DNA from: Nocardioides mesophilus
GTDB taxonomy: Bacteria; Actinomycetota; Actinomycetes; Propionibacteriales; Nocardioidaceae
Reading direction: 5' to 3'
NCBI RefSeq assembly: GCF_014395785.1
Contig: NZ_CP060713.1
Span: 4,182,501-4,246,500, forward strand
Length of the DNA: 64,000 nt
Numbering within the stretch: the first letter of the stretch is position 1; the number at the start of each line of letters is the position of its first letter. Both the position numbers and the translations under genes were made by a program. The notes under the pieces were generated by a model that saw only the letters and a program-made list of their open reading frames with translations, was not told the origin of the DNA and did no database searches. Positions 30,537-37,017 of the stretch are shown piece by piece.

Positions 30537-31736
30537 TCAGGCCGGGAGCCGGTCGGCCCGGGAGGTGCGCCGGGACCGGGCCGCCGGCGCGACCAGCAGC
30601 CCCACGACGGCGGCCCCGCAGGCGACCAGGATGGCGTGGCGCACGCCGACGTGGTCGGCGAGCAGGCCGACCAGCGGCGGGCCACCGAGGAACGCGGCGT
30701 AGCCGATCGAGCTGACCACCGAGAGCCGTACGGCGGCGCGGTCCTCCTCGTCGGCCGCCGCGCTCATGCCGAGCGGGAAGCCGAGCGAGGCGCCGAGCCC
30801 CCACAGGACGGCCCCGGCCATCGCGCCGGGCAGGCCGGGGGAGAGCACCACGACGAGCACCCCGGCGACCACCAGGCCGGCCGTGGCCCGGAGCACCGCC
30901 ACCCGGCCGAACCGCTCGACCGGGGAGCCGCCGAACAGCCGGCCCAGCGTCATGGCGGCGACGAAGACGCCGAAGCCGATGGCGCCCACCGACTCGACCG
31001 CGCCGTAGCCGTCGACCAGGGAGAGCGCCAGCCAGTCGTTGGCGATCCCCTCGCAGAGCGCGAACGCCATCACCAGCAGGCCGATCGCCAGGGTGCGCGG
31101 CTCCCGCCAGGCGGACAGCAGCGAGGGCCGCGGCCGGGTGTCGCGCTGGTCGGCGTCCTCCACCGGCAGGAACCGGCGCAGGCTCACCGGGACGACCAGG
31201 GCGATCACCACCACGGTGCCGACCAGCTGGCTGGACAGCGCCACGTCGAGGCGGGCGCAGGCGGCGCCGACCAGCGCGCCGAGCACCGTGCCGAGGCTGA
31301 AGCCGGCGTGGAAGCGCGGCATGATCGTCCGGTCCAGCCGGTGCTCGACGTCGGCGGCCTCGACGTTCATCGCCACGTCCCAGCCGCTCGTGCCGATCCC
31401 GTAGGCGAACATCCCCAGGCCCACCACGGGCACGGCGGCGACGCCGACCCCGAGGCCCATCACCAGCAGCCCGAGGCCGGTCAGGGTGGCCCCGGTGAGC
31501 ACGGTGCGGGCCGGTCCGAGCCGGCCGATCACCGCGCCGGAGAGCGGCAGCGCGACCAGCGTGCCGCCGGAGAGGCACAGCAGCAGCAGCCCGACGCCGC
31601 CGGGGGTCAGGCTCAGCGCGTCCTTGAGGGCCGGGACGCGGGAGACCCACGAGGCGAAGGCCAGTCCGTTGAGCAAGAACACGACCGCCACGGCCACCTT
31701 GGCCCGCTGGACCGTCACCTGCGTCTCCTTCGACAT
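30537..31736 (-). CDS. Major facilitator superfamily transporter
   Basis: A 399-residue, about 12-helix MFS protein. It begins VAVVFLLNGLAFASWVSRVPALKDAL and has the intracellular loop GRLGPARTVL and the second-half GRLFGGSPVERFGR, the usual MFS A-like motifs. The N-terminal FASWVSRVP is typical of the sugar/drug MFS group related to YbjJ. The substrate is not known. The start at 31736 excludes an upstream in-frame extension rich in Arg and Pro. Confidence 0.85.
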   Translation of the reverse strand: MSKETQVTVQRAKVAVAVVFLLNGLAFASWVSRVPALKDALSLTPGGVGLLLLCLSGGTLVALPLSGAVIGRLGPARTVLTGATLTGLGLLVMGLGVGVAAVPVVGLGMFAYGIGTSGWDVAMNVEAADVEHRLDRTIMPRFHAGFSLGTVLGALVGAACARLDVALSSQLVGTVVVIALVVPVSLRRFLPVEDADQRDTRPRPSLLSAWREPRTLAIGLLVMAFALCEGIANDWLALSLVDGYGAVESVGAIGFGVFVAAMTLGRLFGGSPVERFGRVAVLRATAGLVVAGVLVVVLSPGLPGAMAGAVLWGLGASLGFPLGMSAAADEEDRAAVRLSVVSSIGYAAFLGGPPLVGLLADHVGVRHAILVACGAAVVGLLVAPAARSRRTSRADRLPA

Positions 31737-31866
31737 CCGCGGCACTGCGCTGCCGAAGCCCGGCTGCTGGCCCGGCTCCCGACAGAGGACCCGACATAGT
31801 GCTCCGGGCGGATTGGAACGGTCAAATCCACGGGCGCGGCTGCCCGTTCCGACCTGGTTCACCCGT

Positions 31867-31872
31867 TATCCT
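31867..31872 (+). promoter_or_regulatory. -10 element (TATCCT) of the EEP-like gene, leaderless
   Basis: TATCCT ends 6 bases before the ATG at 31879 and no ribosome site is present, consistent with a leaderless transcript. Confidence 0.5.
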
Positions 31873-31878
31873 CGCTGG

Positions 31879-32730
31879 ATGTTCGCGAGGACGCCCAGCA
31901 CCAGCGGCCCGACACGCCCGGCCCTTGCCGGGCCCCGACGGAGCACCGGGAGTCGGCTGACGCAGGCGGCGCTGGTGCTGTGCGTGGCGCTGACCGGCGT
32001 GCTGGTCGCTCCCGACGCGCAGGCGGCGGACTCGCTGCGCAAGAGCCGGCAGGCCACGGCGAACATCCGCTTCAACATGTCGCGGGAGCACCAGCGCGCG
32101 GACATCGCCAAGGTGGCGCGCCGCAGCGACGTGATCGGCTGGCAGGAGATCAACCGCCGCTGCCAGGTGAAGGCGATCGACCGTCGCTCGCAGTACAACA
32201 CCTACTGGCCGGGCGGTCGCGACGAACGCGGACGTCCGCGCCTGACCGCCCAGAACACCAGCCCGATCTCGTACCGGCCGCGCAAGTGGCAGCACCTGCG
32301 GTCCGGCTCGGTGCGCGCGGTGCCGGCGATCAACGAGGTCTCGCGCGACCGTTATGTCAACTGGGTGCTGCTGCGCGACCGCAAGACCGGCCGGGTGGTG
32401 GCCCGCTGGAACACCCACTTCGTGCCGGGCGGCTGGGCGCGCGAGAAGCTGCCGCACACCCGCAAGCGTCGCCGTGCCTGGTTCCAGCAGCGCGCCGTCG
32501 TCCTGGCCACCATCGGGCACCTCCGGGAGAAGGCGCGGTTCGTGATCGGCGGCGCCGACGTGAACCGGTTCCGGCTCGACTTCCTGGGCGACGCCGTGGC
32601 CTACGACACCGACGGCGCGCACTTCGACTACCTGACGCACGTACGACGGCGCCGGATGCGGCAAGTGCCGGTGAAGGTGGTCGAGCTGCACTCCGACCAC
32701 GACGCGATGATCGGCACCTACCCGTACTAA
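31879..32730 (+). CDS. Secreted endonuclease/exonuclease/phosphatase-like protein
   Basis: A 283-residue protein with a Sec signal peptide (AALVLCVALTGVLVAPDAQA, cleavage after AQA). The mature part looks like a compact EEP fold: ANIRFNMS, SDVIGWQEINRR with the metal-binding Glu, WNTHFVPGG, GGADVNRFR, and the terminal HSDHDAMIG with the catalytic Asp-His. It is very rich in Arg. It is probably a secreted metal-dependent phosphoesterase or nuclease. It is the last plus-strand gene before the dif site. Confidence 0.7.
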   Translation: MFARTPSTSGPTRPALAGPRRSTGSRLTQAALVLCVALTGVLVAPDAQAADSLRKSRQATANIRFNMSREHQRADIAKVARRSDVIGWQEINRRCQVKAIDRRSQYNTYWPGGRDERGRPRLTAQNTSPISYRPRKWQHLRSGSVRAVPAINEVSRDRYVNWVLLRDRKTGRVVARWNTHFVPGGWAREKLPHTRKRRRAWFQQRAVVLATIGHLREKARFVIGGADVNRFRLDFLGDAVAYDTDGAHFDYLTHVRRRRMRQVPVKVVELHSDHDAMIGTYPY

Positions 32731-32731
32731 G

Positions 32732-32756
32732 CATCCGGGGGAGGACAGCCCGGATG
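32732..32756 (+). terminator. Hairpin after the EEP-like gene
   Basis: CATCCGGG (32732-32739) pairs perfectly with CCCGGATG (32749-32756) directly after the stop codon. No T-run follows. Confidence 0.5.
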
Positions 32757-32796
32757 ACTGTGGCGGGGAGGCGCCGCACCGCTTCTCGTGCACGGT

Positions 32797-32824
32797 AGTT
32801 GACATAATGTGCCTTATCGGCACT
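32797..32824 (-). other. dif: dif-like XerC/XerD recombination site (replication terminus)
   Basis: Read on the minus strand, the site has an 11-base XerC-type arm AGTGCCGATAA, a 6-base spacer GGCACA, and an 11-base XerD-type arm TTATGTCAACT. Compared with the E. coli arms GGTGCGCATAA and TTATGTTAAAT, 8 of 11 and 9 of 11 bases agree. It lies in a short AT-richer patch between convergent genes. The strand bias of GGGGGAG switches at this point, which independently supports a chromosome-dimer resolution site. Xer binding has not been shown. Confidence 0.85.
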
Positions 32825-32849
32825 TTATCCCAGGGGTGGAGCGGGGCGG

Positions 32850-33185
32850 TCAGGACCACCCCATCGTCCACGTGCCGCCCTCGACGACCGCGTCGTCCGA
32901 GCAGTCCTGCTCGTCGGGCTCGACGGTTCCGCTGCGCAGCGCCTCGGCCCAGCCCGGCAGCGGCGACATCCCATGGGCACGTAGTTGCCCGGTCGACGGC
33001 AGGTCGACGACCGAGATGGCGCGCAGCCGGTCGTCGGCGCCGTAGCCGCCGCGCAGCAGGCCCTGGCGCAGCAGCGCGTCGACCTCCGCGCGGGCGAGCC
33101 CGGTGAGGCGGCAGAAGTCTTCCACCGCGACGACCTCGAGGTCGTCCGACAGCAGCCGGTGGCCGGGGCCGTCGTCAGCGGTCAC
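32850..33185 (-). CDS. Small MerR-like/CbpM-like HTH protein, unknown function
   Basis: A 111-residue protein started at GTG 33185, which has an AGGGGGTGG purine stretch before it; an ATG at 33209 would add 8 residues. Residues ~15-45 ([20 protein letters not shown], then [12 protein letters not shown]) look like the winged-helix start of MerR or CbpM proteins. The C-terminal half is acidic with no known domain. It is convergent with the EEP gene across the dif site. Confidence 0.6.
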
Positions 33186-33227
33186 GAGACCACCCCCTGT
33201 CGGGCTCATTCTACGAGCAGCGGCGGG

Positions 33228-33233
33228 TACCGT
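33228..33233 (+). promoter_or_regulatory. -10 element (TACCGT) of ppgK, leaderless
   Basis: TACCGT ends 7 bases before the ATG at 33241 with no ribosome binding site. Confidence 0.45.
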
Positions 33234-33240
33234 CCCCGCC

Positions 33241-34029
33241 ATGAGCATTGCGTCCCGCACCACCACAACAGCGCCGGTCGGCGTCGACTTCGGCGGCAGC
33301 GGCATCAAGGCGGCGACCGTCGACCTCGGCACCGGACGGTTCGCCTCGGAGCGGATCCGGATCGAGACCCCGGAGCCGGCGACGCCGGCCGCGGTCGCCG
33401 AGGTCGTCGCCGAGCTGCTGGACCGTCTGGGCACGCCGGCTTCCGCGGCGGTCGGCCTGACCGTCCCGGGCGTCGTGGCGCACGGGACGGTGCGCTCGGC
33501 CGCCAACATCGACAAGTCCTGGATCGGCACCGACGCCGACACGCTGTTCAGCGACCGGCTGGGCCGCGAGGTGACGGTGCTCAACGACGCCGACGCCGCC
33601 GGCCTGGCCGAGGTCCGCTACGGCGTGGCCCGGGACCGCACCGGCCTGGTGATCGTGACCACGCTCGGCACCGGGATCGGCTCGGCGATGGTCTACGACG
33701 GCGTACTGGTGCCCAACTCCGAGCTCGGCCACCTGCCGATGCACGGCGGCCCGGCCGAGCACCGGGCCGCCAACAAGGTCCGGGAGGACCACGACCTGAG
33801 CTGGGCGCAGTGGGCGGAGCGGCTGACCGAGTACTACCGGCTGCTGGAGGGGCTGTTCTCCCCGGACCTGTTCGTGGTCGGCGGCGGGGTCAGCAAGCGC
33901 GCCGCGTCGTTCCTGCCCCTGGTGGACATCGACACCCCGATCGTGCCGGCGGCGCTGCTCAACACCGCCGGCATCGTCGGGGCGGCACTGCTGGCGCAGG
34001 AGCGCCCCCACCTGGCGCTGCCGGGCTAG
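33241..34029 (+). CDS. ppgK: Polyphosphate glucokinase (ROK family)
   Basis: A 262-residue kinase that phosphorylates glucose with polyphosphate or ATP in actinobacteria. The phosphate 1 motif is [19 protein letters not shown], and the actinobacterial PpgK block [16 protein letters not shown] precedes [10 protein letters not shown]. The catalytic stretch is [14 protein letters not shown], followed by ELGHLPMHG. The gene ends tail-to-tail with the DUF3072 gene, sharing the palindromic CTAG. Confidence 0.93.
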
Positions 34030-34301
34030 CCGGTCGGTCCGGAGTCGCCCCGGCCGGTGGCCGCCTGCAGCCGGTCGATGTGCTGGGACGCCTCCGCCTT
34101 GGTCAGGTCGGCCTGGAGCGTCTCACCCGCCTCGCGGGCCAGCGTGTCGAGGTAGCTGCGCTGCGCGCCGGTCATCGGCTCGTCGCCGGTGGCCCAGTCG
34201 TTCGGGTCCTTCTCGGTGGTGTTGCCGGCGGGGGCGCCGAGCACGTCCGGCTCCCCCGTCGACATCTGGTCCTGGTTCGAATGCATGTTCGATTCGGTCA
34301 T
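34026..34301 (-). CDS. DUF3072 family protein
   Basis: A 91-residue hydrophilic protein. The C-terminal 45 residues carry the DUF3072 core, [20 protein letters not shown], and an Ala/Lys helix ending [10 protein letters not shown]. The N-terminal half is low-complexity and Asn/Asp/Glu-rich. Function is unknown. The stop is TAG inside CTAG (34026-34029), shared with the opposing ppgK stop. Confidence 0.8.
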
Positions 34302-35490: not shown

Positions 35491-37017
35491 ATGACGCAGG
35501 ACTACCTGGCCCGGATCGGCAACCTCATCCGCGACGCCCGCAAGCACCGCGGCTGGACCCAGAGCCAGCTCGCCGACGTGCTCAGCACCAGCCAAAGCGC
35601 CATCAACCGGATCGAGCGCGGCCACCAGAACCTCAGTCTGGAGATGATCGCCCGGATCGGCGAGGCGCTGGACTCCGAGCTGGTCTCGCTCGGCAGCGGC
35701 CCGACGCACCTGCGGGTGGAGGGCCCCACCACCCTCTCGGGCAGCATCGTGGTCAAGTCCTCGAAGAACGCCGGCGTCGCGCTGCTGTGCGCGTCACTGC
35801 TGAACAAGGGCCGTACGACGCTGCGCCGGGTGGCCCGGATCGAGGAGGTGAACCGGCTGCTCGAGGTGCTCAACAGCATCGGTGTGCAGACCCGCTGGCT
35901 GAACTCCGACAACGACCTCGAGATCGTCCCGCCCGCGGAGCTGAACCTGCTGGCCATCGACGCCACCGCGGCCCGCCGTACCCGCTCCATCATCATGTTC
36001 CTCGGCCCGCTGATGCACCGCGAGGACGTCTTCGACCTGCCGTACGCCGGCGGCTGCGACCTCGGGACCCGCACCGTCGAGCCGCACATGACCGCGCTGC
36101 GGCCGTTCGGCCTGGAGGTCAAGGCGACCGACGGCAGCTACCACGCGACGGTCAACCGGGCGGTCTCCCCCACCCGCCCGATCGTGCTGACCGAGCGCGG
36201 CGACACGGTCACCGAGAACGCGCTGCTGGCGGCCGCCCTCAACGACGGCGTCACCGTGATCCGCAACGCCAGCCCCAACTACATGGTCCAGGACCTCTGC
36301 TTCTACCTGGAGAAGCTCGGCGTCCACATCGACGGCATCGGCACCACCACGCTGACCGTGCACGGACGCACCGAGATCGACGTCGACGTCGATTACGCCC
36401 CTTCCGAGGACCCGATCGAGGCGATGTCGCTGCTCGCCGCCGCGATCGTGACCCGCTCGGAGATCACCATCCGCCGGGTGCCGATCGAGTTCCTCGAGAT
36501 CGAGCTCGCGCTGCTCGAGGAGATGGGCTTCCAGTACGAGCGGAGCGAGGAGTTCGTCGCCGCCAACGGGCACACCCGGCTGGTCGACATCACCACGAAG
36601 GTCTCGGCGCTGCACTCCCCCATCGACAAGATCCACCCGATGCCGTTCCCCGGTCTGAACATCGACAACCTGCCGTTCTTCGCGGTGATCGCGGCGGTCG
36701 CCGAGGGCCAGACCCTGCTGCACGACTGGGTCTACGAGAACCGCGCGATCTACCTCACCGAGCTGACCCGGCTGGGCGCCGCGGTGAAGCTGCTCGACCC
36801 GCACCGGGTGATGATCGAGGGCCCGACGCACTGGTCCGGCGCGGAGATCGTCTGCCCGCCGGCGCTGCGGCCGGCGGTGGTGATCCTGCTGGCGATGATG
36901 GCCTCGAAGGGCACCTCGGTGCTGCGCTCGGTCTATGTCATCAACCGCGGCTACGAGGACCTCGCCACCCGGCTCAACGCGCTGGGGGCGCGGATCGAGA
37001 CGTTCCGCGACATCTGA
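35491..37017 (+). CDS. XRE-type HTH fused to MurA-like enolpyruvyltransferase
   Basis: A 508-residue fusion. Residues ~6-65 form a Cro/C1-type helix-turn-helix (RDARKHRGWTQSQLADVLST, then SQSAINRIERG). From ~70 on is a full UDP-N-acetylglucosamine enolpyruvyltransferase fold. Both catalytic features of MurA are kept: the KN pair (K92, N93 in SSKNAGVALL) and the cysteine of the active loop (C189 in GGCDLGTRTVEPH). The gene has a leaderless-type start and an operator-like palindrome on its -10 region, so autoregulation is likely. It may be a regulator that senses UDP-GlcNAc or PEP, an active paralogue of MurA, or both. A separate housekeeping MurA is assumed but not in the window. Confidence 0.85.
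   Translation: MTQDYLARIGNLIRDARKHRGWTQSQLADVLSTSQSAINRIERGHQNLSLEMIARIGEALDSELVSLGSGPTHLRVEGPTTLSGSIVVKSSKNAGVALLCASLLNKGRTTLRRVARIEEVNRLLEVLNSIGVQTRWLNSDNDLEIVPPAELNLLAIDATAARRTRSIIMFLGPLMHREDVFDLPYAGGCDLGTRTVEPHMTALRPFGLEVKATDGSYHATVNRAVSPTRPIVLTERGDTVTENALLAAALNDGVTVIRNASPNYMVQDLCFYLEKLGVHIDGIGTTTLTVHGRTEIDVDVDYAPSEDPIEAMSLLAAAIVTRSEITIRRVPIEFLEIELALLEEMGFQYERSEEFVAANGHTRLVDITTKVSALHSPIDKIHPMPFPGLNIDNLPFFAVIAAVAEGQTLLHDWVYENRAIYLTELTRLGAAVKLLDPHRVMIEGPTHWSGAEIVCPPALRPAVVILLAMMASKGTSVLRSVYVINRGYEDLATRLNALGARIETFRDI

Follow-up and report, generated by a model that had tools for sequence, protein, structure and literature searches.

A chromosomal dif site of actinobacterial type in Nocardioides mesophilus and the polarised G-rich motif that points to it

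The 28 bases at positions 32797-32824 of the window, by which we mean the whole analysed stretch of 64,000 nucleotides (G000:C1:4182501-4246500, on a one-contig chromosome of 4,488,624 bases), form, we are almost certain, a chromosomal dif site of the actinobacterial type that would work via FtsK/XerCD dimer resolution. It was observed directly that the site is there, has one copy, lies opposite dnaA and is conserved, that a short motif converges on it, and that the same genome has XerC-like, XerD-like and FtsK-gamma genes. As a dif site it is ordinary and very well supported; the short DNA signposts oriented toward it are unusually clear.

The site reads AGTTGACATAATGTGCCTTATCGGCACT on the plus strand and AGTGCCGATAAGGCACATTATGTCAACT on the minus strand, and occupies 4215297-4215324 of the chromosome. 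On the minus strand it has the 11+6+11 layout, with an XerC-type arm (AGTGCCGATAA, 32814-32824), a 6-bp spacer (GGCACA, 32808-32813, the first three bases of which are TGT on the plus strand) and an XerD-type arm (TTATGTCAACT, 32797-32807), and the letters agree with the arms and spacer that the initial annotation had described there. The assignment of the arms to XerC and XerD is our assumption by analogy with E. coli, from whose dif arms, as we take them to read, the present ones differ at 5 of 22 positions. With three mismatches allowed and the spacer left free, the pair of arms has one match in the window and none in any of 100 dinucleotide-preserving shuffles, and in the whole chromosome the 28-mer is found once (reversed-pattern controls gave 0), likewise the arms with a free spacer. 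The expectation of a single copy per genome was thus borne out, and a stronger dif elsewhere, which the annotation had named as a refuting observation, did not appear within three mismatches. The runner-up arm match in 800 kb of the organism's own DNA carries 7 mismatches of 22, in a scan where the site itself was split by a stretch boundary and places with more than 6 first-arm mismatches were unscored. A hairpin at the site was considered and rejected, since 47 of 200 shuffles fold at least as well in single-strand form (z -0.72).

Codon-phase GC follows plus-strand coding up to 32730 and minus-strand coding from 32850, and the pattern is gone at 32731-32849; these 119 bases, in which dif sits, separate two convergent genes at their 3' ends, an intergenic placement that had been proposed correctly. 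The left gene (31486-32730, plus strand) and the right one (32850-33584, minus strand) are open reading frames of uncertain true start and without a Pfam or NCBIfam match. Three mechanical open reading frames that run into or up to the gap (31822-32871, 31980-32798 and 32807-33106) were taken as spurious, because they are at odds with the codon-phase GC reading.

Position on the chromosome was measured from dnaA as a proxy for oriC, and the sole DnaA C-terminal domain found lies at 1922923. From there dif is 0.511 of the circle away, about 48 kb off the exact antipode, so that the expected location opposite oriC holds. In 15 one-contig genomes, the present one included (G000, G003, G018, G044, G014, G036, G025, G069, G061, G053, G201, G155, G089, G365 and G196), the distance from dnaA to dif ranges from 0.418 to 0.548 of the circle, with a median deviation from 0.5 of 0.023. 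Read by eye, dif has the same orientation relative to dnaA in 8 of these genomes and the opposite one in 7, a split to be expected if terminus inversions are tolerated and dif functions in both orientations.

GC skew, read from 40 stretches of 20 kb, switches sign at dif only weakly: 10-kb means are +0.0074 on the left and -0.0093 on the right over 400 kb (Mann-Whitney p 0.022), and the cumulative skew within the window has its maximum slightly left of dif, in 4-kb windows covering 26-32 kb. Of the predicted coincidence with a GC-skew extreme, what stood is a weak sign change over 400 kb and a local peak in the window. None of the three refuting observations named in the annotation (several copies, a place far from the skew extreme, a stronger dif elsewhere) turned up in these data. 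GC skew alone is too weak to place the terminus better than within tens of kb, and it contributes little to the case for dif.

Much sharper is the polarity of the heptamer GGGGGAG. Left of dif the window holds 18 copies between 2540 and 32743 (the nearest at 32737-32743), all on the plus strand, and right of it 19 copies between 34251 and 61637 (the nearest at 34251-34257), all on the minus strand, so that 37 of 37 point toward dif. The number itself is within dinucleotide expectation (27.6, sd 5.65; 7 of 100 shuffles reach 37), and the exceptional property of these copies is their polarity, not their abundance. Without prior choice of a motif, GGGGGAG also tops the 7-mers by bias in the 400 kb surrounding dif, with 138 copies toward it and 7 away (66 plus and 2 minus on the left, 5 plus and 72 minus on the right), and within 25 kb all 32 point toward dif. 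The best single breakpoint falls in a 1.5-kb interval, 4215237-4216751, with dif inside, and this confirms the strand-bias flip that had been reported at the site. Density per 10 kb is 6.4 within 25 kb of dif and then 3.0, 2.3, 3.7 and 3.8 out to 200 kb, with no smooth rise.

Genome-wide there are 570 forward and 544 reverse copies of GGGGGAG, and 338 and 360 of the reversed control. Among the first 100 forward copies, 46 precede dnaA, over a length of 1.92 Mb, and 54 follow it within 0.41 Mb, and therefore the bias changes near the origin too; it is weak in the last 0.41 Mb before dnaA, because 23 of those 46 copies are there. Nineteen samples of 20 kb taken elsewhere gave 65 copies in the right orientation and 8 in the wrong one, 5 of the 8 in three samples at 1.34-1.81 Mb, and the sample spanning dnaA gave 1 right and 4 wrong (66:12 when it is included). 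Hardly any copy around dif is misoriented, then, and at the origin the polarity disappears.

The motif can be defined more closely by single-base changes, where ratios give copies pointing toward dif against copies pointing away, in the 400 kb of own DNA and around dif in 20 relatives. CGGGGGAG stands at 85:2 in own DNA and 224:0 in the relatives. Position 2 admits A (CAGGGGAG, 11:0 own and 44:0 in relatives) but not C or T (36:23 and 4:5, own); CAGGGGAG is a one-base variant outside the published octamers, and either purine is accepted at the second base. Position 1 can also be T or A (29:0 and 21:4, own), and G is rare there (3:1). YGGGGGAG as a whole gives 114:2 in own DNA and 296:2 in relatives, and the motif as refined here, YRGGGGAG, 129:3 and 348:2. 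The canonical GGGCAGGG is unpolarised, at 10:11 in own DNA and 33:30 in relatives. Two further words were tried as alternative guides and set aside: the KOPS sequence GGGNAGGG, at 33:24 in own DNA and 85:46 in relatives, with an excess that comes mostly from GGGGAGGG (16:5 and 36:6), and GAGAAGGG, which we take to be a B. subtilis motif, at 18:3 in own DNA but 32:17 in relatives.

All 22 arm bases with up to three mismatches were found in 44 of 78 genomes of relatives and in 133 of 394 genomes of the class, the own genome counted in both, and the reversed-pattern control in the class search hit 1 of 394 genomes (G300). The core TTGACATAA-N6-TTATCGG with one mismatch occurs in 68 of the 78 genomes, own included, and in 59 of 62 of good quality; from the difference between 68 for the core and 44 for the full arms we conclude that the arms are conserved on their inner side and variable in their outer bases, those of the XerC arm most. 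Ten of the 78 genomes lack the core, 6 of them less than 90% complete and 4 of them 92-100% complete (G008, G016, G045 and G074). A base-by-base comparison covered 59 sites out of 60 loci searched; because GACATAA and TTATCGG had served to select them, it informs on the outer bases and the spacer alone, and the spacer's TGT is kept in 55, 58 and 55 of the 59. The exact 28-mer has no match in genome_contigs, and with four spacer bases left free it gives 11 loci, including Arthrobacter, Gordonia, Aldersonia and a metagenome-assembled genome titled Nocardioidaceae bacterium. The proposed comparison with dif sites of related actinobacteria thus came out in favour of the site, both through the core and through the dif of Frankia alni, quoted in the available part of Kono et al. 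2011 (PMC3025954), which by eye differs at 5 of 28 bases, 3 of them outer bases of the XerC arm, 1 in the spacer and 1 outer base of the XerD arm. In several draft assemblies the core lies within a few hundred bases of a contig start (G113:C162:36, G121:C17:89, G043:C39:151, G388:C2:244, and G013:C13:447 with C56:19).

In 20 relatives from seven families, chosen for a site within three mismatches and likely contig room and hence not a random draw, GGGGGAG within 20 kb counts 172 plus and 3 minus on the left and 0 plus and 169 minus on the right, 341 of 344 pointing toward dif. Genome by genome it is the 7-mer with the strongest bias in 13 and the runner-up in 2, and its ranks of 6, 7, 28, 113 and 34 fall in the five genomes with the fewest copies, 6 to 10 (L133, L135, L143, L151 and L153). 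Neighbouring genes were compared in 14 of these relatives. At 35491-37017 on the plus strand the window encodes a MurA-type UDP-GlcNAc 1-carboxyvinyltransferase with an N-terminal XRE-type helix-turn-helix, and a gene of 79-92% identity lies within about 15 kb of dif in 5 of the 14; the gene belongs to the terminus region and combines its two domains in an unusual way.

Candidates for the recombinases and the pump that such a site would need are encoded in the chromosome. The XerC-like gene at 3.48 Mb has XerC as its best model (308.8 bits, under the cut-off of 335.15) and the XerD-like gene at 4.11 Mb has XerD (326.9 bits, just under 329.6); both are thus below the strict equivalog cut-offs and both exceed the cut-off of 279 of the Xer subfamily NF001399, with 281.8 and 367 bits respectively. 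The open reading frames beside the XerD-like gene we read as an alanine dehydrogenase and a ParA-type ATPase. Two more tyrosine-recombinase frames (L005 and L007, G000:C1:4118187-4120942) are separated from dif by about 94-97 kb and from xerD by about 8-11 kb, and are perhaps part of an integrated element. One FtsK gamma domain is found in the chromosome, above cut-off. Its recognition helix is RVGFAKAGRLMD, as in 19 of the 20 sequences read, with RVGFAKAGRLVD in 1 (20 of 21 were read, L180 of G025 being missed by the pattern). In alignment RVGFAKAGRLMD takes the place of KIGYNRAARMIE and RIGYNRAARIIE in FtsK gamma domains of solved structure, a change from GYNRAARxxE, whose N, R and E read the DNA, to GFAKAGRLMD.

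From the E. coli system we would expect the following course of events. An odd number of crossovers would leave two sister chromosomes joined as a dimer, and the septal pump FtsK would load on directional G-rich motifs, most likely YRGGGGAG, and travel along each arm toward the point where the motifs converge. At dif it would meet XerC and XerD bound on the two 11-base arms, and its gamma domain would activate XerD, leading to a crossover at the 6-base spacer and to splitting of the dimer. Loading, pumping and recombination at dif are all carried over here by analogy. On sequence grounds YRGGGGAG is probably the FtsK guide of this class, and we consider it likely, with a fair margin of doubt, that it is the class KOPS that replaces GGGNAGGG, matched by the changed recognition helix of FtsK gamma. 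If this is true, the motif and the helix would have co-evolved, and at least seven families would have retained both.

Some relatives carry two or more dif-like matches (G064, G107, G122, G335 and G366 for the full arms; G013, G019, G048, G055 and G075 for the core, which is found exactly once in 62 of 68 genomes and more often in 6), possibly owing to dif-using mobile elements, second replicons, split contigs or mixed assemblies, and cases such as G064, G335 and G366 lend some colour to the thought that our 28-mer is a decoy, the attachment remnant of an element that uses XerCD, with the true dif elsewhere. The single copy within three mismatches, nearly antipodal to dnaA and with the motif breakpoint on it, leaves this a negligible chance, the more so as a position roughly opposite dnaA holds in the 14 other one-contig genomes, and we regard the idea as refuted in practice. 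A subtler doubt concerns the motif: its polarity might be a by-product of mutational skew, ribosome-binding sites or leading-strand codon use and not a mark of an FtsK guide. To some extent GC skew and gene direction do go with the replichores, a weaker bias is seen in other words as well (AGGAGG, 229:152 in own 400 kb), the abundance in the window is unexceptional, and part of the bias survives a change of the last base to C or T (CGGGGGAC 18:2 own and 45:14 in relatives; CGGGGGAT 12:3 and 18:9). However, with gene strand taken from codon-phase GC and 23 motifs in unclear places set aside, 41 of 43 copies of GGGGGAG in genes running against the fork still point toward dif (19 of 19 on the left, 22 of 24 on the right), against 75 of 79 in genes running with it; the motif tracks the replichore, not the genes. 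The reversed word GAGGGGG gives 37 to 25, and changes at positions 3 to 6 of CGGGGGAG leave little or no bias (for instance CGGCGGAG 37:52 and CGGGGCAG 20:19, own). Independence of gene strand, together with the effect of one-base changes, argues against ribosome-binding sites, codon use and plain skew as the cause, and we find a by-product very improbable.

It is a separate matter whether the forks usually meet here. The initial annotation had placed the replication terminus of the chromosome at this site, and as far as FtsK and XerCD are concerned dif is that terminus, while the meeting of forks at it is presumed. Replicons in which dif and the coverage minimum lie apart are reported in the accessible part of one paper (PMC13342612), and GC skew is weak and noisy here; dif is nearly antipodal to dnaA, nevertheless, and the skew does switch sign nearby, so a terminus proper that lies elsewhere seems unlikely to us. 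With the terminus tied to a single 28-bp site, the replichores, gene order and strand biases of this chromosome become correctly readable, and YRGGGGAG becomes a sharp candidate for the sequence that steers FtsK in the class.

Neither the site nor the motif is of a new kind, since both an actinobacterial dif and the Corynebacterium octamer have been published (PMC3025954, PMC2830990). The available text of Kono et al. 2011 reports a predicted dif for each of 66 actinobacterial genomes (PMC3025954), and an actinobacterial consensus of Hendrickson and Lawrence 2007 is cited in the part seen of PMC2830990. With these dif sites ours shares the 11+6+11 layout, the core CCGATAA-N6-TTATGTCA, the single copy, the position opposite oriC and the strand-bias flip, and with E. 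coli dif the same layout and much of the inner arms, besides the XerC-like, XerD-like and FtsK gamma genes. The E. coli guide motif differs, GGGCAGGG being neutral in our 400 kb.

Parts of four Corynebacterium papers show (T/C)GGGGGAG and G(A/T/C)GGGGGA plotted as architecture imparting sequences (AIMS) to find dif, one of them with 856 leading against 61 lagging copies (PMC2830990, PMC3022926, PMC3219685, PMC3350403); YGGGGGAG has served for this purpose since 2010 (PMC2830990), and a fifth paper in that line treats C. ulcerans (PMC3164646). In their available portions the octamer is not called an FtsK motif, and a literature search outside which most subscription journals lay found no test of YGGGGGAG as an FtsK guide and no tested KOPS in the class; as far as their accessible text goes, none of three FtsK/KOPS papers (PMC11898615, PMC11537254, PMC13277299) gives an actinobacterial motif. 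The same octamer converges on dif here, with its strand bias on the leading strands (138:7 within 200 kb, 65:8 in the 19 samples), and what is added to the Corynebacterium AIMS is its extension to Nocardioidaceae and six other families of the class, the tolerance of A at position 2 and the demonstration that it follows the replichore. KOPS are described as a subclass of architecture imparting sequences in the part seen of Hendrickson et al. 2018 (PMC5993296). Like KOPS, the motif is rich in G and asymmetric, runs from ori toward dif and changes strand there; unlike them it has another sequence, and the gamma helix here is RVGFAKAGRLMD as against RIGYNRAARIIE and KIGYNRAARMIE. What is less ordinary, judged from the sequences compared, is a neutral GGGCAGGG beside an almost absolute polarity of YRGGGGAG that tracks the replichore and not the genes, and an altered recognition helix of FtsK.
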